61,047 bases of DNA, from the NCBI GenBank assembly GCA_022565795.1, contig JAIUMA010000015.1:1-61047 (forward strand). The letters are read 5' to 3'. This document shows positions 36,797-45,815 of the stretch, piece by piece (position 1 is the first letter of the stretch; each line of letters starts with the position of its first letter). The notes under the pieces were generated by a model, which saw only the letters and a list, made by a program, of their open reading frames with translations, was not told the origin of the DNA and ran no database searches. Position numbers and translations under genes: made by a program. Origin of the DNA: Balneolia bacterium. Lineage in GTDB: Bacteria > Bacteroidota > Rhodothermia > Balneolales > Cyclonatronaceae.

Positions 36797-39316
36797 ATGG
36801 CCTCCAGGAAAAAAAGCCGGAAACCGGACCGTTCACCCTCAAGGCCATTGTCGGCCTGGGATAATATTCCCAAAAAATATCAGCACCTGATTTGCCTCGG
36901 CTTCCTGTTGATTATGCCGCTGTTTCAGTATGGTGATGTCATCATTGGTGATCAGCGCTTCTTTTCCCCGGATATCGTGCAGTGGCGGGCAAGCGCTGAA
37001 TCCATCATAGAGCATCGTGAAACTTATGGAGAAGAGCCATTGTGGTCGGAGAACATGTTTTCAGGCATGCCGGCCTTTATCGTATCATACATGCGAAGCG
37101 TCCCCCATGTTGATCAGGTCTTCACATGGCTGGCCCCGATTTTTCCGGCTGCAGCGCTCTGGGTGATGCTAATCGGAGTCTACCTTTTCCTTTTGAGGCT
37201 CAAGCTGCATCCGCTGGCCGCAACTATTGGCGCGCTTCTGATTGCTTTCACGACCTACATGCCGATAATTGTTGGAGCCGGTCATAACGCGAAGGTCTAC
37301 GCGCTGGCGTTCATTCCCTGGATGTTCTACGGCTACATGATGCTCACACGATCTTCCAAAACATTACTGGGACTTGGTATTTTCGCCCTGGCGACCACGC
37401 TGGAGCTCAGAGCAGGTCATCCTCAGGTCACTTACTTCTTCCTATATCTGTTTGCTTTCTGGTGGATTTACGATACCTGGCAGGCGCATAAGGCGCAAAA
37501 ACTCCCGTCCTGGCTCAAAAAAACCGGACTCATTGCGGCTGCAGGACTTCTCGCACTTGCGGCCAACATCCAGCCCTACTGGAGCATTTATGAATACTCT
37601 CCTTACAGTATTCGGGGTGGTTCAGCCATAGCCGAAACGCAGAGCGGCCTCGATCTTGACTACGCTATGGCATGGTCACACGGTTGGTTCGAGCTTACGA
37701 CCCTGGCCGTTCCCGGAATTCAGGGTGGCAGCTCTTCCGACAATCTCTATTGGGGACCCAAAGTGATGACCAGCGGCCCTCATTATCTGGGCGCCATTGC
37801 AGTTCTGCTTATCCTCATCGCTCTTTTTAACGTGAAAAGCGGACTGAAGTGGGTCTTCCTGTCGGGCGCGATTTTATCCATGCTTTTTGCATTGGGTGAA
37901 AACTTCCTTGGCTTCAACAAGCTCTTTTTCGACTACATGCCCTTGTTCAATAAGTTCAGGGCACCGGAAAAATGGCTGATGGTCACCACATTCAGCTTTA
38001 ACGTGCTGGCAGCTATGGGCGCAAACTGGCTGTTCACCTCCGAAAAGGAGAATACCGCAGCCTCCCTTCGTAAAATTGACTGGCCGGCCGGGCTGGCAGT
38101 TGCAATTGGCGTGATTCTACTCATTTTAGCAGGAAGCTCATTAAGCTACGATAAGCCGGGTGAGCGTCAGCAGATTGCTCAGCAGGTCGCTCAGCAAAAT
38201 CAGGTAAGCGCAGACGACCCGAGGGTGATGGAAGTTGCAAATAACTTCCTGGCCGAAATCCGCGCTGAGCGTGAGTCTCTGGCCCAGTCTGATATCCTCC
38301 GCTATCTGTTTTTTGTCGGAATCGGCATCATACTTATAGGAGCCTTCATTCTTGCAAAAATACCGGCTTTTGTTGCCGCTGCCGCCATCATACTTCTTCT
38401 TGCCATCGACCTCATAGGCGTAGGCAACCGCTACATACCTGATTCCAGCAAGATCGATGCTTCCATAAATCAGACCGATTTCATGGAACGCCAGCGTTCA
38501 GGCTATCACGACTTCATACAGCAGCAAATGAGCGGCATGGATTACCCGTACCGCGTTTTCCCGATTGATCAGAATCCGTTCAATAACGCCATTCCATCCT
38601 ACTTCTATCCGTCGGTTGGCGGCTATACCGGAGCCAAGATGAGCCGTTACCAGGATGCGATTGACAATGCTTTTTTCGGTGGCCCCGCGGGCATCAATTT
38701 CGGGCTTCTGGATATGCTTAATGTTCGCTATATGACCGTCCGACAGGATTACGGCCTTCCGGGTTATGAAGTCATTTATCAGCAGAGTGATGGCATTGTG
38801 CTGGAAAACAGAAACGTACTCCCTAAAGTCTTTTTCCCTGAAAGCGTTCGTTCTGCCTCGAGCCCTGCAGCGTCGCTCGACTTTATCTCAGCAGGCAGAT
38901 TTGATGCACTTTCGGAGTCAGTGCTTGAAAAGGAGAACTTGCTCGAGCACAGTGCCGACAGCGGAGCGGAGTTCCTGATCACAACGTACAATGCCAGAAA
39001 TATTCATTTCACAGTGAACAAGAATGAAGCCGGATATATAGCCATCAGCGAGATGTACTATCCCGCGGGCTGGACAGCAACCGTGAACGGTGAAGAGACC
39101 GATATCTTTGCCATGAACTTCCTTCTTCGCGGAATCCACTTACCGGCTGGTGAGCATGAGGTTCAGCTTGAGTTTGCTCCGGCTTCGCATACAGTCGGCT
39201 CGGCGCTTTCCTGGTTATTCAACCTTTTTATCCTCGGTTTGCTTGGTTTTGGTTTCTATAAGAGCCGAAGCCTTCCAGCCAATGGGGAGGAAAAACCTGA
39301 ATCAGAGTCCGCTTGA
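36797..39316 (+). CDS. YfhO-family large membrane protein
   Basis: An 839-residue inner-membrane protein with about twelve helices in the first 545 residues, beginning LICLGFLLIMPLFQYGDVI, then a soluble beta-rich periplasmic domain (about 555-800) and a last helix. The segments WSENMFSGMPAF and AVPGIQGGSS and the later GYTGAKMSRYQDA match the YfhO/GT-C-like family, whose members are thought to transfer sugars from polyprenyl carriers (B. subtilis YfhO glycosylates lipoteichoic acid). The start ATG at 36797 has no strong SD. Its stop overlaps the TTG start of the next glycosyltransferase (TTGA), so the two are likely partners. Confidence 0.82.
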   Translation: MASRKKSRKPDRSPSRPLSAWDNIPKKYQHLICLGFLLIMPLFQYGDVIIGDQRFFSPDIVQWRASAESIIEHRETYGEEPLWSENMFSGMPAFIVSYMRSVPHVDQVFTWLAPIFPAAALWVMLIGVYLFLLRLKLHPLAATIGALLIAFTTYMPIIVGAGHNAKVYALAFIPWMFYGYMMLTRSSKTLLGLGIFALATTLELRAGHPQVTYFFLYLFAFWWIYDTWQAHKAQKLPSWLKKTGLIAAAGLLALAANIQPYWSIYEYSPYSIRGGSAIAETQSGLDLDYAMAWSHGWFELTTLAVPGIQGGSSSDNLYWGPKVMTSGPHYLGAIAVLLILIALFNVKSGLKWVFLSGAILSMLFALGENFLGFNKLFFDYMPLFNKFRAPEKWLMVTTFSFNVLAAMGANWLFTSEKENTAASLRKIDWPAGLAVAIGVILLILAGSSLSYDKPGERQQIAQQVAQQNQVSADDPRVMEVANNFLAEIRAERESLAQSDILRYLFFVGIGIILIGAFILAKIPAFVAAAAIILLLAIDLIGVGNRYIPDSSKIDASINQTDFMERQRSGYHDFIQQQMSGMDYPYRVFPIDQNPFNNAIPSYFYPSVGGYTGAKMSRYQDAIDNAFFGGPAGINFGLLDMLNVRYMTVRQDYGLPGYEVIYQQSDGIVLENRNVLPKVFFPESVRSASSPAASLDFISAGRFDALSESVLEKENLLEHSADSGAEFLITTYNARNIHFTVNKNEAGYIAISEMYYPAGWTATVNGEETDIFAMNFLLRGIHLPAGEHEVQLEFAPASHTVGSALSWLFNLFILGLLGFGFYKSRSLPANGEEKPESESA

Positions 39317-40653
39317 AGCGTGTGCTCATCATAACGTACTACTGGCCGCCTTCGGGCGGATCAGGCGTGCAGCGCTGGCTCAAGTACAGCAAATACCTGC
39401 CGGAACACGGCTGGCAGCCGATCATCTATACGCCGGAGAATCCCGAGGCACCGGCATCAGATGAAAGCCTGCTCAATGAGATTGCCGAAGAGATTGAAAT
39501 AATTAAACGACCCATTCTCGAGCCCTATGGCTGGTATAAGTGGATTACCGGACGCAAGGAATCCGTTAATGTAGGATTCACTCGTACCGAGACTGGCTCA
39601 CCCGAGAGCCGGCTTGAGCGGATTTCACGATGGATTCGTGGCAATTTCTTCATCCCCGACGCCCGCAAATTCTGGATCAGACCTTCCGTGCGCTTTCTTT
39701 CAGGCTACCTCAAAGACGCCCCTGTAGATGCCATCATCAGTACGGGGCCGCCCCACTCTATGCATCTGATTGCGATGAGGCTCGCAAGGCACACGAAACT
39801 TCCCTGGATAGCTGACTTCCGCGACCCGTGGACCGGAATCGATTTTTACAATGATCTTCTCCTTACAAAACAGGCCGACAGACGACACCGTAAGCTGGAG
39901 AAAACCGTTCTTGAGACGGCCTCTTCAGTTATAACCGTCAGCGATCAAATTCGTCAGGAGTTGGCATCAAAAGGTGCGGGTACTGAAAAAGTTGTGGTTG
40001 TCCCGAACGGATTTGATCCCGCAGATTTCGAAGACATCAAGAGTATCGAATCGTCCACTGATGCCTTCACCCTGGTCCACACCGGCTCTCTCGTGCCGTC
40101 GCGTAATCCTGAAGCACTGTGGAAAGCGCTTGGAAGAATGTGCAGCCAAAATCCTGCGTTCAGTGAAAAGCTCCATATTAAGCTCATGGGAAGCACGGAC
40201 GGAAGTGTCATTCAGTCGCTTCGAAAATACAAGCTGTACGAAAAGGCTGAAATCATTCCGTACCTGCCCCATGCCGAGGCTATCAGGGAGTCGCTTTCGG
40301 CGTCTGTGCTGCTTTTGCTCATCAACAATACGCCAAACGCGGAAGGCTTTTTGTCGGGCAAGGTTTTTGAATACCTGGCGATGGGCAAGCCTGTTTTATG
40401 CATCGGTCCGGAAGAGGGTGATGCAGCCCGGCTGCTAAACGAAACCAACGCAGGCAAAACCGCAGGTTTCGATAATGATGAGCAGGCAGAGCGCATTCTC
40501 ACTTCCTGGTTCGATGCCATGCAGCAGGACCTGAAGCCCCTCAGCCCGGACACCTCTGCCATAAGCCGCTACTCGAGAAAAGAGCAGGCAGGCTCAATTG
40601 CAAAGCTTCTTGACGGCCTTTCAGTCAATCAGAGGGATGTTCAGGGGCGTTAA
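39313..40653 (+). CDS. Glycosyltransferase, GT4 family
   Basis: A 446-residue GT-B enzyme. The N-terminus RVLIITYYWPPSGGSGVQRW (3-22) with its Gly-rich acceptor loop is typical of GT4 proteins from polysaccharide clusters. The donor half holds PNGFDPADFE (about 236-245), LVHTGSLVPSRNPEALWKAL, and SGKVFEYLAMGKPVLCIGPE (about 349-368) with the EX7E-like Glu. The start is TTG in a TTGA overlap with the YfhO-like gene. Its last 33 bp overlap the end of the opposing GT2-GH gene. Sugar and acceptor are unknown. Confidence 0.88.
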   Translation: MKRVLIITYYWPPSGGSGVQRWLKYSKYLPEHGWQPIIYTPENPEAPASDESLLNEIAEEIEIIKRPILEPYGWYKWITGRKESVNVGFTRTETGSPESRLERISRWIRGNFFIPDARKFWIRPSVRFLSGYLKDAPVDAIISTGPPHSMHLIAMRLARHTKLPWIADFRDPWTGIDFYNDLLLTKQADRRHRKLEKTVLETASSVITVSDQIRQELASKGAGTEKVVVVPNGFDPADFEDIKSIESSTDAFTLVHTGSLVPSRNPEALWKALGRMCSQNPAFSEKLHIKLMGSTDGSVIQSLRKYKLYEKAEIIPYLPHAEAIRESLSASVLLLLINNTPNAEGFLSGKVFEYLAMGKPVLCIGPEEGDAARLLNETNAGKTAGFDNDEQAERILTSWFDAMQQDLKPLSPDTSAISRYSRKEQAGSIAKLLDGLSVNQRDVQGR

Positions 40654-43600
40654 GTCTGTGGCTATTTCCTGACCGTCAGATACGGTTAATAAAAGCCTGA
40701 AGTACTCATGATTTTGGGGAATCCTCAGTCTCAGATTCGGGCCGCTGTGAATATCCCGTACGGCAAGATAGTTTCCATTCTCATCGGTTTTCACCAGAGA
40801 CCATTCGAAGCTGAAACCATCCAGCGAGCTACCGTTTACCCAGCCCTCATCTTCATCATAGAGCTTGGCGTAATAGTCAAGAAAATTACCCGAATGTACC
40901 GCTAAAGCAGGCTTCAGAATCCTGATATGTTTATTGGCAGCAATCGCCTCTGTATCATTCAGGTATTCCTTAAGCTGGAAATACTCCGCTCTTGCTCTGC
41001 CTTTTCGGTCAATGATTCCGTCGAACGTCAGCTTATTGCTTTCATGCTGATCCTGCCATGAGGTCACAAAAAACGGTCTTCCGTTACTTCCTCCCATTGG
41101 ATGAACCAGCGTTTGCGCATTGATTTCACTGAACACATACGGTTTTTCGGACTCTTTAAAGTAGCGCACAATCCAGTCGAGATGCTCAGTCTCTTTAACG
41201 GTCAACCCAAAATAATCGAGACCGTCTACGTTATCGTACAGGAGCTGTGAATGATAAAGCGAAAGCAGATTGACCTCAAGATTTAGGATAATCGGCCTTG
41301 ATGAATCGAGCTTTTTTATGTCTGCAATGAGATTGTTCAGCCAGATAATATACGCCCGATTCTGATGCAGTAGCTCCGGCTTGTGGAAGAAGTCTTTCTG
41401 ATTGTATAAGACATCATTCTGGATATTCCAGGATGAAATATGCGGCTTGTCCTTATGCTGCTTTACCTCGCGCACGATGGATTCATGAAGCTTTTCTGCT
41501 CTTTCGGCATCATAAAGGAAATCAATCGATGATGAAACCCAAAAACCATAGGAAACATCGAGGTTAAACTCACGGGAAATGTTCAGGATATTATGCACAT
41601 AAATCGAATTCCCGGTAATTTTGATGGTATCAAAGCCAAGATTGGTGATGCGCTCAAAGTCTTCCATGAGCTTACGGCGGCTCAGCACGTGGTAATTTCT
41701 TCTCCACTGATTGCTGTACTTCAGGTTGATACCTTTCGTACCTTCCAGTGAGCTTCTTTCCGAACTGCTAACCTCGTTTTCATCCCCGTTCTCACTGTTT
41801 GTTTCGGAGTCCGGATTGCTGTTCAGATTTCCGGAATAACCGGATGAATCGGACTCCAGATTGCTTCCGGACCTCAGCGTATCGCTTCTTAGAGCAGGGA
41901 ATGCAGAAAACACGTAATCCGGCACTTCTTTACTTCTGAATGAGCTCTTGATTACATCACTTTTGGGGATCGTCCAGTCCAGGTAGCCATCAGGCTCCAT
42001 GCCTTCGGGCCAGTTTTTATCGACGCTGCTGTTGAAGTAAACAACCGATTTAATCTCGCTGAAGTTATTTTCTATAGCATCGAACGCATTTTCAACCCAG
42101 CTGCTTTGATCGCTGCCACCGCGAAGTGTACCAAACTCGGCGATTACTACCGGCGTAAGCGGCAGGTCTCTAAGCACATTGTGATATGGCTGATACAGCT
42201 GTCTGAAGTCATACCAGCTTCCGCCTTCGCTAAATGTGCCGTAATCCAGAATATTGAGCCCAATCCAGTCGACGTACTCTCTGCCCGGATAGGCTGCGAG
42301 CATATTCTCAGGTTTCCACGGATTCCATATCCAGATTACGTTGTGCGCTTCACGCTCCTTGAAAATCTCGTACGCATGAATCCAAGCGGCTCTGAACTTC
42401 GGTCCGGCCTCGTCACCCGACATATACCACGGATAGAATGGATTATCGAACTCATGGGCGAATCTCAGAAATACCGGACGATCCAAATCACGGAGTTTAT
42501 CGGCAAATTCGCCAATGAATGAGTCGAAAAAGCCCTCAGCGATAAGGTCGTAGACGTGATCATCCTCTTCGATCTGATTTTCGAACGTATTCAGCCAGGG
42601 CTCCCAGGTAATCATCGGAATAGAATGATTAATGTAGATGGAGTCAACCATTGCGGCTGGAAACTGTTCGTCTAAATCTTTATCCCATGCCAGATAAAAC
42701 GAGATAATGTCGAAGTTTTCATCAATCTCATCTGATATGTTCCGCACGATTTCCAGACTCGTAATACCGTCATCAAACTCAGGGGCAAAAATTCCGATAT
42801 AGTTAATCACATTTTTCTCCTGCGGCTCGGCCTGCACACCTTCCCACTTCACATATTCGGCTTGGTAATAAAACCCAATAGCGATGGCTGAAATCAAAAT
42901 CACCAGAGGTAAAGCGGCCTTTTGCCAGGTTGAGAACATCATATACTTCCCTGTGGTTACAATGGTTTTCTTTGGCTCTGGGAACTCAAAGGTTGGCTTC
43001 ACCGGCTTGGGCTTTTCGAAGGCAAAGACCAGCGTGTAGAACATAAATCCGGCGTTCAGGAGCGCAAAGCCGGACATAAACATTGAAAATGGCGTCAGGT
43101 CAATTGACAACCCATAGAAGATAGCGACTATTGAAATAACACCTACGATGATATTTGGCATGAGGATAATCCAGCTTGTCCGCTCATTATCCTCCTTCGG
43201 TGTAGGCAAATAAGGGACCTTCTTCCTGATGATGGTATAAACAAAGCCAATCACAAAAATCCACCAGGTGCAGGCCTGAAGCAGGCCACCCAGAAAGTGG
43301 GTTCCCCACTCGCTTTTGTGCATCACCCATCGCTGCACAAAAAGCCGAATTGCCAGAACGGAGGCCAGAACGGGTGTCACAATAAAACCAAAGTTGATAA
43401 TATTCCCCTTCCAGGGAGTAGCTGCAGCAAAAAGCGAGATGATAGGAATAAGCAGACAGATCAGAACCACCAGTCCTGATAAGTAATGAAGGGGCAAAAT
43501 CCCGAAATGAATACGCTGTCGCCAGGTAAACTTGCTGAAGAGCTTCGGTAATACAGAAACCAGCAGTTCAAGCGTTCCTCTCGACCATTTCAGCTGCTGC

Positions 43601-44487
43601 TTATAGTAGGATGTTAGCGTGGCCGGCACAAGCCCCTTGGTAAATATTTCGGGCACGTAAACGGATTTCCAGCCCTTGGCATAAAGCTGCATAGCGGTAT
43701 GCATATCTTCAGAAAGCCCCGCAGCATGGCCACCAATGGAGTCGAGCGCTTTACGGCGGAATATGCAGTTTGCCCCGATTGCGTTTACGGTCCCGTACGA
43801 GTTCATGGTCATCATCACCGGACCATAGAAGTGGAAGGTCTGCTCCGCGGCCGCTTTGGCAACCCTGGATTCATCCACATTGTAGTACGCCTGCACCGAT
43901 TGTACGAATCCGATTTTATCATCTTCGAAGTACGGAAGTATATCCTCGAGAAAATTTTCTTTCGGCACGTGATCCGGATCGAGAATCAGGCAGATATCAC
44001 CCGTTGCCTGCTTCAGCGCGTTGTTTATATTTCCGGCTTTTGCGTTTATCCGGTTGTCTCTGGTAACGTGAACAATTCCGTGCTGCTTGCAAAACTCCTT
44101 GAGGTGCGCATCATTGGCCTCATCGCACAGATAGGTGGTATGCGGATACCTCATGCGCTTGATGGCGAGAAGCGTGTTCTCAATCATATCATACGGCTCA
44201 CCCGGAAAGTAAGTGGTGAGCACGTCTACGGTGAGGTTTTTCGTCAGCACCGGCTTTTCGGGTACGGAAATATCCCAGTAGTGATACCAGATGTAAATCA
44301 CACGAAAGCTATCGAACCCAAGGAGGGCAATAAGCAGCCAGTAGAGCAGCTTATAATCCATAAATTCGGGCGCCAGAAACCAGTAAAAAAAGTTGATCAT
44401 GCTCAGCAGCCCGAAAACAATCAGGATTCTGAGCGTAAGCTTTTCTCTCAGCGTCGGTTTTTTTATGATGGTTCCGTTAGTGCTCAA
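40621..44487 (-). CDS. GT2 polysaccharide synthase fused to GH26-like and second TIM-barrel hydrolase-like domains
   Basis: A 1288-residue fusion. Two helices (about 20-68) lead into a cytoplasmic GT2 synthase domain with D122 (CDEAND), DPDH (170-173), SED (259-261) and QQLKW (297-301), the cellulose-synthase signature with Lys in the Arg position of QxxRW. Further helices run to about 490, and after a basic stretch a last helix (525-542) leads out. Then a GH26-like domain (about 560-850): RFAHEFDNPFYPWY with acid/base E679, NVIWIWNPW, and nucleophile E784 in IAEFGT. A Ser/Asn/Glu-rich linker (868-917) joins a second TIM barrel (about 918-1180) with WNIQND and FSEI (E1121), then an Ig-like end. 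The start is TTG in a TTGA overlap with the upstream hydrolase gene. I infer synthesis plus trimming of a beta-glycan. Confidence 0.85.
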   Translation of the reverse strand: MSTNGTIIKKPTLREKLTLRILIVFGLLSMINFFYWFLAPEFMDYKLLYWLLIALLGFDSFRVIYIWYHYWDISVPEKPVLTKNLTVDVLTTYFPGEPYDMIENTLLAIKRMRYPHTTYLCDEANDAHLKEFCKQHGIVHVTRDNRINAKAGNINNALKQATGDICLILDPDHVPKENFLEDILPYFEDDKIGFVQSVQAYYNVDESRVAKAAAEQTFHFYGPVMMTMNSYGTVNAIGANCIFRRKALDSIGGHAAGLSEDMHTAMQLYAKGWKSVYVPEIFTKGLVPATLTSYYKQQLKWSRGTLELLVSVLPKLFSKFTWRQRIHFGILPLHYLSGLVVLICLLIPIISLFAAATPWKGNIINFGFIVTPVLASVLAIRLFVQRWVMHKSEWGTHFLGGLLQACTWWIFVIGFVYTIIRKKVPYLPTPKEDNERTSWIILMPNIIVGVISIVAIFYGLSIDLTPFSMFMSGFALLNAGFMFYTLVFAFEKPKPVKPTFEFPEPKKTIVTTGKYMMFSTWQKAALPLVILISAIAIGFYYQAEYVKWEGVQAEPQEKNVINYIGIFAPEFDDGITSLEIVRNISDEIDENFDIISFYLAWDKDLDEQFPAAMVDSIYINHSIPMITWEPWLNTFENQIEEDDHVYDLIAEGFFDSFIGEFADKLRDLDRPVFLRFAHEFDNPFYPWYMSGDEAGPKFRAAWIHAYEIFKEREAHNVIWIWNPWKPENMLAAYPGREYVDWIGLNILDYGTFSEGGSWYDFRQLYQPYHNVLRDLPLTPVVIAEFGTLRGGSDQSSWVENAFDAIENNFSEIKSVVYFNSSVDKNWPEGMEPDGYLDWTIPKSDVIKSSFRSKEVPDYVFSAFPALRSDTLRSGSNLESDSSGYSGNLNSNPDSETNSENGDENEVSSSERSSLEGTKGINLKYSNQWRRNYHVLSRRKLMEDFERITNLGFDTIKITGNSIYVHNILNISREFNLDVSYGFWVSSSIDFLYDAERAEKLHESIVREVKQHKDKPHISSWNIQNDVLYNQKDFFHKPELLHQNRAYIIWLNNLIADIKKLDSSRPIILNLEVNLLSLYHSQLLYDNVDGLDYFGLTVKETEHLDWIVRYFKESEKPYVFSEINAQTLVHPMGGSNGRPFFVTSWQDQHESNKLTFDGIIDRKGRARAEYFQLKEYLNDTEAIAANKHIRILKPALAVHSGNFLDYYAKLYDEDEGWVNGSSLDGFSFEWSLVKTDENGNYLAVRDIHSGPNLRLRIPQNHEYFRLLLTVSDGQEIATDLTPLNIPLID

Positions 44488-45815
44488 TGGTTATTCAGTA
44501 CGTAGAATGGAATATTTGTTGAGGCGAAGGTACCATCCTCATTATAGACATAGGCAAAAATCCTGTACGGCCCTTCTCGCAGAGGTGCCCTGAACCTCAC
44601 CTGATTTTCTTCAAAGCCGAGAAAAGTCCCGACTGGGATATAGTTCTCAACCACCAGCTCATGCGTATCACTGTACCACGCTTCAGGGTAAATCTCCCAT
44701 TTCAGAACTAAGCTGTCCGAAGGGTTTTCCTTGAAGAATATCTCAGCCACGCTCGACTCTCCCGGCGATAATATGATGTTGTTTTCCGCTCTGCGTTTAT
44801 TTACGAGCATATACTCCAGACCTGAGGTTGGCACTGGTTCACCAGACTGTTTCCACACGGATTCTATAACCCGTACGCTTTCTGATTTACGGTCGTCTTT
44901 AAATAGGCTGAACCACGTGTGCGTTCGCTCGAGTTTCGAGCCCCAGTAGAAAACGAGCGCGCCAAGGCTGGAGGCCTGCTCATTCGCTTTCATCAGTTCA
45001 ATTCTGGAACGGTACAGCTCTGATTTCACAAACGTCGGTGCTTCGATTGGTGACCCCCATGATGTAAACTGAGACTCCCACGGGCCGGTTGGCCCCAACT
45101 CGCTAAAAAAGTATGGACGGGGGCCAAACAGAAACGAGGTCTGTGCCAGATGATCATTCACAAACGCTGTATTCCCAAACGTGTTAAAAGCAATGATATC
45201 TAGGTGAGGCGAGTGAAAGAAAACGCTGCTCATCGTTTTGCGCCCCGCTCCGATTATTGAGGTCGAAACCGGATGATTCGGATCCAGTTCCTGCACCATG
45301 CTCACCAAATCATTGAAAATCCGGATGAAGCTGTTCTTGCGAAAGACAAGCGGATAGTTAATTTCATTGCCCAAATTCCAGATAAGCAGCGCAGGGTGAT
45401 CTTTGTGCTCATTTACTAAATCAGCAATCTCTTGCCTTAACGTCTCGACAACATCACCAGCATACATGTCGTATTCCGTACTGTAGTAAGGCAGCCAGAT
45501 ATCTACAATAACCGCAAGATTATGACGGTGGGCCTCATCAAGCTTTTCACCTATATCATCTGTCGAAAAAATGCGGACTGTGTTTCCACCAACGGAAGCC
45601 AGCTCCTCGAAGTAGGAATCGCCGCCTCCACCCTGTATAATAAATGGCTCGCCGTTGCGAATGAGCTGAAATCCGTTTTCGGTCCGCTCAACATAAACAG
45701 TTCTGTTTTGTTCAGATACACGATATTTGTCCAGACTTCGCAGGTAGAACAAACCGGACACAGCAACAAGAGCAATCAGAGCAATGCCAGAGACGATAAC
45801 TATTTTGAGCTTCAC
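44484..45815 (-). CDS. Membrane-anchored TIM-barrel glycoside hydrolase, GH2/GH5-like
   Basis: A 443-residue protein with one N-terminal helix (about 5-25), so anchored in the inner membrane or a lipid-free signal anchor, facing the periplasm. The TIM barrel starts RNGEPFIIQGGGGDSYFEEL and has the acid/base Glu E151 in WNLGNE and the nucleophile E239 in FFSELGP, the GH2/GH5 clan pattern. A C-terminal Ig-like domain starts near 335 and ends RIFAYVYNEDGTFAST. The start is GTG at 45815. It is first in an operon with the GT2-GH fusion (TTGA overlap), so it probably works on the glycan made by that synthase. Its barrel resembles the C-terminal barrel of the fusion, hinting at duplication. Confidence 0.82.
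   Translation of the reverse strand: MKLKIVIVSGIALIALVAVSGLFYLRSLDKYRVSEQNRTVYVERTENGFQLIRNGEPFIIQGGGGDSYFEELASVGGNTVRIFSTDDIGEKLDEAHRHNLAVIVDIWLPYYSTEYDMYAGDVVETLRQEIADLVNEHKDHPALLIWNLGNEINYPLVFRKNSFIRIFNDLVSMVQELDPNHPVSTSIIGAGRKTMSSVFFHSPHLDIIAFNTFGNTAFVNDHLAQTSFLFGPRPYFFSELGPTGPWESQFTSWGSPIEAPTFVKSELYRSRIELMKANEQASSLGALVFYWGSKLERTHTWFSLFKDDRKSESVRVIESVWKQSGEPVPTSGLEYMLVNKRRAENNIILSPGESSVAEIFFKENPSDSLVLKWEIYPEAWYSDTHELVVENYIPVGTFLGFEENQVRFRAPLREGPYRIFAYVYNEDGTFASTNIPFYVLNNH

Follow-up and report, generated by a model that had tools for sequence, protein, structure and literature searches.

The operons that make bacterial polysaccharides usually include an enzyme that cleaves the polymer (PMC5933820, PMC8829089), although the reason why a synthase should be accompanied by an enzyme that cleaves what it makes is 'not fully understood' (PMC5933820). 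In the cellulose system the hydrolase, BcsZ, is a periplasmic cellulase separate from the synthase BcsA. Direct fusions have also been described: NdvB and 'Orphan' of Pseudomonas are GH17-TM-GT2 proteins, a design for which cyclic beta-1,3-glucan synthesis has been proposed, with the GH17 domain acting as a transglycosylase (PMC10237404). The S. meliloti operon for an arabinose-containing polysaccharide (APS) carries a GT2 and GH26 pair as separate genes (PMC7902896), and BgsA (PMC5567048) and RiGT2 (PMC10374906) are mixed-linkage glucan synthases. Among the relevant hydrolases, BuGH158 is an endo-beta-1,3-glucanase of clan GH-A, built of a barrel and an Ig-like domain, and is much weaker on mixed-linkage glucan (PMC7157763).

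We analysed a stretch of 61,047 nucleotides from a Balneolia bacterium (contig JAIUMA010000015.1; hereafter the window), which encodes a GT2 synthase fused to a GH26 domain and a GH158-like module. Like NdvB and 'Orphan', this is a single polypeptide, predicted to reside in the inner membrane, with a BcsA-like GT2 and a putatively extracytoplasmic clan-A glycosidase, and a beta-glucan is the proposed product in each case. The Pseudomonas proteins differ in that their GH17 is N-terminal, they are without a second barrel, they have QRxRW, and no GH158 partner is reported for them; no GH17 was found in the fusion protein, in which GH26 and GH158-like modules are C-terminal instead. A synthase joined to a glycosidase is already known as a design, and the statement in a preliminary description of this DNA that partner hydrolases occur only as separate proteins is superseded by the Pseudomonas fusions. 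The GT2-GH26-pseudoGH158 version would nonetheless be new, in line with the remark in that description that no characterised example of the domain order is known; no account of a GT2-GH26 or GT2-GH158 fusion, and nothing to the contrary, was found in the papers searched.

The remaining systems each share some of these features. The GT2 can be aligned with BcsA in its core, its motifs and its channel helices, and both operons contain a polymer-cutting enzyme, whereas here the hydrolase is fused and of the GH26/GH158 type, PilZ is missing, an adjacent BcsB was not recognised, and Lys stands for Arg in QxxRW. BgsA and RiGT2 are likewise bacterial GT2 beta-glucan synthases and represent candidate product types, but they are without fused hydrolases and have a c-di-GMP-binding tail (BgsA) or PilZ (RiGT2). 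The GH26 protein ApsE of the S. meliloti APS operon (pSymB; L082 1985-6935) matches the window GH26 profile with 88 bits and keeps both catalytic Glu residues, although that system differs in its separate genes, its UDP-pentose genes and its very distant GT2, and no GH158 is present in the L082 stretch examined. Both BuGH158 (6PAL) and GH158(Pro) (9ORO) match the product of the gene upstream of the fusion over almost its entire length, including the two catalytic Glu, and share their fold with the C-terminal module of the fusion protein. BuGH158 comes from a degradation locus (PMC7157763), whereas the window GH158 is fixed to a synthase and membrane-anchored.

The fusion gene and its operon

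The fusion gene (40621-44487, minus strand) is an intact single frame of 1288 codons with a TTG start, and shares a 4-bp overlap, TTGA, with the upstream GH158 gene (44484-45815, minus strand; 443 aa). The open reading frames, their coordinates, the frame length and the overlap are as the preliminary description gave them, and so is the overall plan, in which one protein unites a processive GT2 with a GH26 domain and another TIM barrel and its operon also encodes a third hydrolase. All of the residues that it named are present in the two proteins (D122, DPDH, SED, QQLKW, E679 and E784 in the fusion, and E151 and E239 upstream), and with the exception of the Ser of SED the named motif residues are invariant among 22 aligned homologues of the fusion and 24 homologues of the upstream gene. 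Searches of the same genome revealed neither a second copy of the fusion nor a second GH26, nor a second CelA-like match at E 1e-10. The 3' end of the fusion gene overlaps by 33 bp (40621-40653) with a convergent GT4 gene on the plus strand (39313-40653).

Across Balneolota and Bacteroidota, 25 distinct copies, the window included, have all three domains at full length in a frame of approximately 1200-1315 residues. A chance fusion is excluded because the frame and its domains are conserved across these copies, and a pseudogene or a frameshift that splits the gene, which the preliminary description had raised as a concern, was rejected on the same evidence. At the level of sequence, the intact fusion, the operon, the family assignments, the conserved catalytic residues and the degeneracy of the last barrel are established.

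The synthase domain and predicted topology

Residues 1-490 (43018..44487, minus strand) constitute a cellulose-synthase-like GT2 polymerase with membrane helices, as indicated by Pfam (GT2 families, 1e-22 to 7e-25), PDB and Foldseek comparisons, and by its motifs. These include D122, D170-P-D172-H, S-E260-D261 and Q297-Q-L-K-W301, as well as AKAG149-152 and a gating-loop-like YLPTPK426-431; D122, D170PD172 and E260D261 are invariant in the alignment of 22 homologues. QQLKW, with QQIKW once, stands for QxxRW throughout the GT2 clade, including the stand-alone relatives at loci L074, L075 and L077; in the window it is encoded at 43585-43599, with Lys in place of the Arg of QxxRW. A PDB profile search matches BcsA at 5.5e-48, and Foldseek also leads to BcsA. 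The profile alignment extends over positions 15-498 and reaches BcsA residue 571, and BcsA-like channel-forming helices around the GT domain are present in the profile alignment, the model and the Foldseek comparison.

Assignment to the cellulose synthase equivalog was rejected, since TIGR03030 (CelA) scores 164 bits where the equivalog cut-off is 699, PilZ was not found in a Pfam scan of the fusion protein, and bcsB was not found among the neighbouring genes scanned. In a GT2 tree the fusion-type synthases form one clade (support 96/94), apart from BcsA and from a separate clade of HlyD-partnered rhizobial synthases that are probably BgsA-type. The fusion clade is about equidistant from these two groups, and its profile scores to them are alike. 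Because the distances to outside groups are so similar, and because QQLKW replaces QxxRW, the GT2 domain does not reveal the donor sugar or the linkage.

In BcsA, residue 571 lies at about the start of the cytoplasmic PilZ domain. In the fusion protein the last BcsA-aligned helix is followed by a Lys-rich linker (residues 484-508, with five K/R counted), then by an extra helix (residues 509-549, with its hydrophobic core at 524-542; 42841..42963, minus strand) that is seen as a helix in AlphaFold and as a hydropathy peak, and then by GH26. One extra helix after the BcsA-like set would place GH26 and the GH158-like module outside the cytoplasm. This agrees with the location proposed earlier, albeit as a prediction from homology and from a whole-protein AlphaFold model of modest confidence (pLDDT 71, pTM 0.57).

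Intact and degenerate glycosidase domains

The GH26 domain occupies residues 561-850 (41938..42807, minus strand) and matches PF02156 at 1.6e-7, with 31.5 bits against a cut-off of 20.2. E679 is the acid/base and E784 the nucleophile, with TWEPW at residues 627-631, and each of the 25 full-length three-domain copies retains the Glu pair. Mannanases predominate among the characterised enzymes of GH26. In profile searches, however, the closest solved GH26 is the lichenase CtLic26A (2.8e-37, 132 bits), whereas the next best scores 48 bits, AlXyn26A and the beta-1,3-xylanase XYL4 about 40, and most mannanases less than 37; Foldseek similarly gives the GH26 model a TM of 0.80 with CtLic26A versus 0.53 with Man26A. 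By sequence this domain is nearest to the lichenase and not to mannanases, and lichenase activity is predicted, although identity to CtLic26A is only about 25% and the domain may cut a glycan other than lichenan.

The upstream gene had been described as GH2/GH5-like, but its product is a GH158 protein that matches 9oro (4e-85) and BuGH158 6pal (4e-82) over nearly its whole length. N150-E151 provides the acid/base and E239 the nucleophile, and both Glu are found in 34/34 GH158 gene products. The window protein has an N-terminal membrane anchor helix and no lipobox; some of its relatives are lipoprotein-like, and the hydrolases are overall either membrane-anchored or lipoprotein-like. In each of the 25 full-length three-domain copies a GH158 gene lies directly 5' of the fusion on the same strand, and in 24 of these the two genes overlap or are within 1 base of each other.

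Beyond GH26, a low-complexity Ser/Asn/Glu linker at approximately residues 856-911 (41755..41922, minus strand; pLDDT <50 at 856-911) leads into residues 912-1288 (40624..41754, minus strand), which hhalign, AlphaFold and Foldseek identify as a degenerate GH158-like TIM barrel with an Ig-like C-terminal domain. The linker region is highly variable, with one invariant residue in 80 at positions 841-920 of the homologue alignment. When the C-terminal module was compared with the PDB as a single sequence, no match was significant, and its identity required profile-profile and fold comparison. Aligned with hhalign to the upstream GH158 gene family, the last 377 residues match with a probability of 98.6 and an E value of 1e-15, the AlphaFold model of the module has a pLDDT of 87.5, and its six best Foldseek matches are all GH158 structures. 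The module is a degenerate GH158. The acid/base Glu is absent from all 31 C-terminal modules compared (the position is Asp1025 in the window protein), and the nucleophile Glu is present in 16 of the 31. An active second hydrolase within the fusion was rejected on these counts; of the two fused hydrolase domains originally described, GH26 stands, with its Glu pair, and the C-terminal one does not. The latter probably serves as a glycan-binding module.

Distribution and rearrangement of the locus

A scan of genome contigs with patterns from the window protein alone, which may miss distant members and other phyla, recovered 26 related loci, most of them full-length, with identities of 39-74% among the full-length ones. 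They are found in Balneolaceae, Prolixibacteraceae (including Mariniphaga anaerophila), Gelidibacter, Algibacter, Lutibacter, Robertkochia, Flavihumibacter, Pedobacter and Chitinophaga. A copy from the same genus as the window is 81% identical over residues 2-876. Occurrence is patchy, at 2/11 genomes in the family, 10/245 in the class and 16/394 in a sample of the phylum, with different thresholds at these levels.

Relatives carry the same parts otherwise connected, and still as neighbours (REARRANGEMENTS). In L074 and L077 a TPR protein, GT2 and GH26 are encoded by three adjacent separate genes, with the TPR gene (L074 5684-7306; L077 6235-7728) directly before the stand-alone GT2 and GH26. 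These TPR proteins may be partners for export across the outer membrane, comparable to PgaA or BcsC, and NCBIfam gives weak matches of the PgaA/BcsC type for the L077 protein only; no outer-membrane exporter was recognised among the annotated neighbours of the three-domain loci. Five further loci (L067, L068 and L071-L073) have GT2-GH26 fusions with an adjoining GH158 gene, and in all five the catalytic residues of the fused GH26 are lost or not recognisable, so that not every system of this kind depends on cleavage by the fused GH26. L069 and L070 encode a GT2-pseudoGH158 protein, whose gene is preceded by a GH158 gene and followed by a separate tandem-GH26 gene; the second GH26 repeat retains its Glu pair.

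All of these arrangements fall within one supported GT2 clade. When the tree is rooted on BcsA, the order runs from separate genes to GT2-GH26 and then to the three-domain form, within which the GT2-pseudoGH158 form nests. Because the parts join and part yet remain neighbours, a shared pathway is well supported.

Genes for a sulfatase/LtaS-superfamily membrane protein of about 830 aa and for a tandem GH26 protein, in which the first repeat is degenerate and the second intact, adjoin the operon in L022 (1391-5613), L024, L029, L030, L041 and L042, and in part in L023. The two genes are possibly a modifying module.

Proposed mechanism and alternatives

We consider it somewhat probable that this is an inner-membrane beta-glucan synthase, its product probably with beta-1,3 links, whose exit-tethered hydrolases trim, release or remodel the chain. 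The processive GT2 would make a beta-glycan and extrude it through its own membrane channel, and the same polypeptide would run through the extra helix into an extracytoplasmic lichenase-type GH26 at the channel exit. The GH158-derived domain, without a catalytic pair, would probably just grip the chain, and the separate membrane-anchored GH158 enzyme would act on the same polymer, which is most likely a beta-1,3-glucan or a mixed-linkage 1,3;1,4-glucan. The tethered enzymes could cut the polymer to length, free it from the channel, or remodel it. A glucan containing beta-1,3 links is favoured because the GH26 is nearest to CtLic26A and the GH158 partner is intact, and a shared role in synthesis is supported by the common presence of polymer-cleaving enzymes in synthase operons and by the GT2 and GH26 gene pair of the S. 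meliloti APS operon. We infer the donor sugar, the linkage, and biosynthetic trimming rather than degradation. Trimming, release or remodelling, as suggested in the preliminary description, stays the best-supported mechanism, albeit as a proposal. A bolder extension, which we would hold to be unlikely, is that Bacteroidota and Balneolota possess a self-contained machine for making, holding and cutting a chain. The degenerate GH158 would hold the emerging polymer while the tethered GH26 determined how long it becomes, and the outcome would be a defined beta-glucan, either in the periplasm or at the cell surface, as the phylum's equivalent of osmoregulated or cyclic periplasmic glucans.

The alternatives overlap in part with this reading, in that transglycosylation and a non-glucan product differ from it in the product, and a holding role for the fused domains differs in the division of labour. 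The hydrolases may act mainly by transglycosylation, closing a beta-1,3-type glucan into rings or branching it, to give a periplasmic glucan. GH26 and GH158 are retaining clan-A enzymes like the GH17 of the nearest published design, and the sulfatase/LtaS-superfamily protein near several relatives could add substituents. Relative to that design, however, the domains come in the opposite order and the hydrolases belong to other families, the closest solved enzymes are hydrolases, and no transglycosylation-specific feature was identified, so that we regard this explanation as having a real but rather small chance of being correct. More doubtful is a polymer other than glucan, such as a pentose-containing glycan like that of S. 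meliloti APS, or a beta-1,3-xylan. The match of ApsE to the window GH26, the appearance of AlXyn26A and XYL4 among the GH26 matches, and the failure of the GT2 to discriminate between products are all consistent with such a polymer, but UDP-pentose genes were not found beside the operon, in contrast to APS, whose synthase is separated by a tree branch of 4.9. The GH158 partners indicate beta-1,3-glucan, and the lichenase far outscores AlXyn26A and XYL4.

It is also improbable, and a little more so, that the fused GH26 and GH158-like domains are mainly glycan holders, with the separate GH158 doing the essential cutting. The C-terminal module is indeed degenerate in all copies, GT2-GH26 relatives have lost GH26 catalytic residues, and across the three fused classes it is the GH158 gene that is always there as an intact partner. 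Both GH26 Glu are nevertheless kept in every three-domain copy, the window included, and where GH26 has left the fusion an adjacent GH26 gene retains the pair. Synthesis of beta-mannan or glucomannan, the product suggested by the preliminary description, would fit the predominance of mannanases in GH26, but is very improbable given the much better scores and fold agreement with CtLic26A and a GH158 as the partner enzyme; a mannan product was rejected on these grounds. In this system the putative cutter, the putative holder and the synthase form one covalent chain, and nature also offers variants in which one or another part is detached, absent or inactive, so that the reason why synthases are accompanied by cutters can be tested by comparing relatives. 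The locus marks a beta-glycan pathway that is widespread in cultured environmental Bacteroidota and apparently unstudied, and it offers enzymes that may synthesise and trim glucans with beta-1,3 links.

Possible lateral transfer and an interrupted copy

The GT2 tree groups the copies from Balneolota with that of Mariniphaga, within the Prolixibacteraceae, which suggests lateral transfer. Among the copies fully read, only that of Gelidibacter sediminis DSM 28135 (L031 6004-9765) is interrupted, with an in-frame stop after residue 385; the two other Gelidibacter fusion copies are intact.
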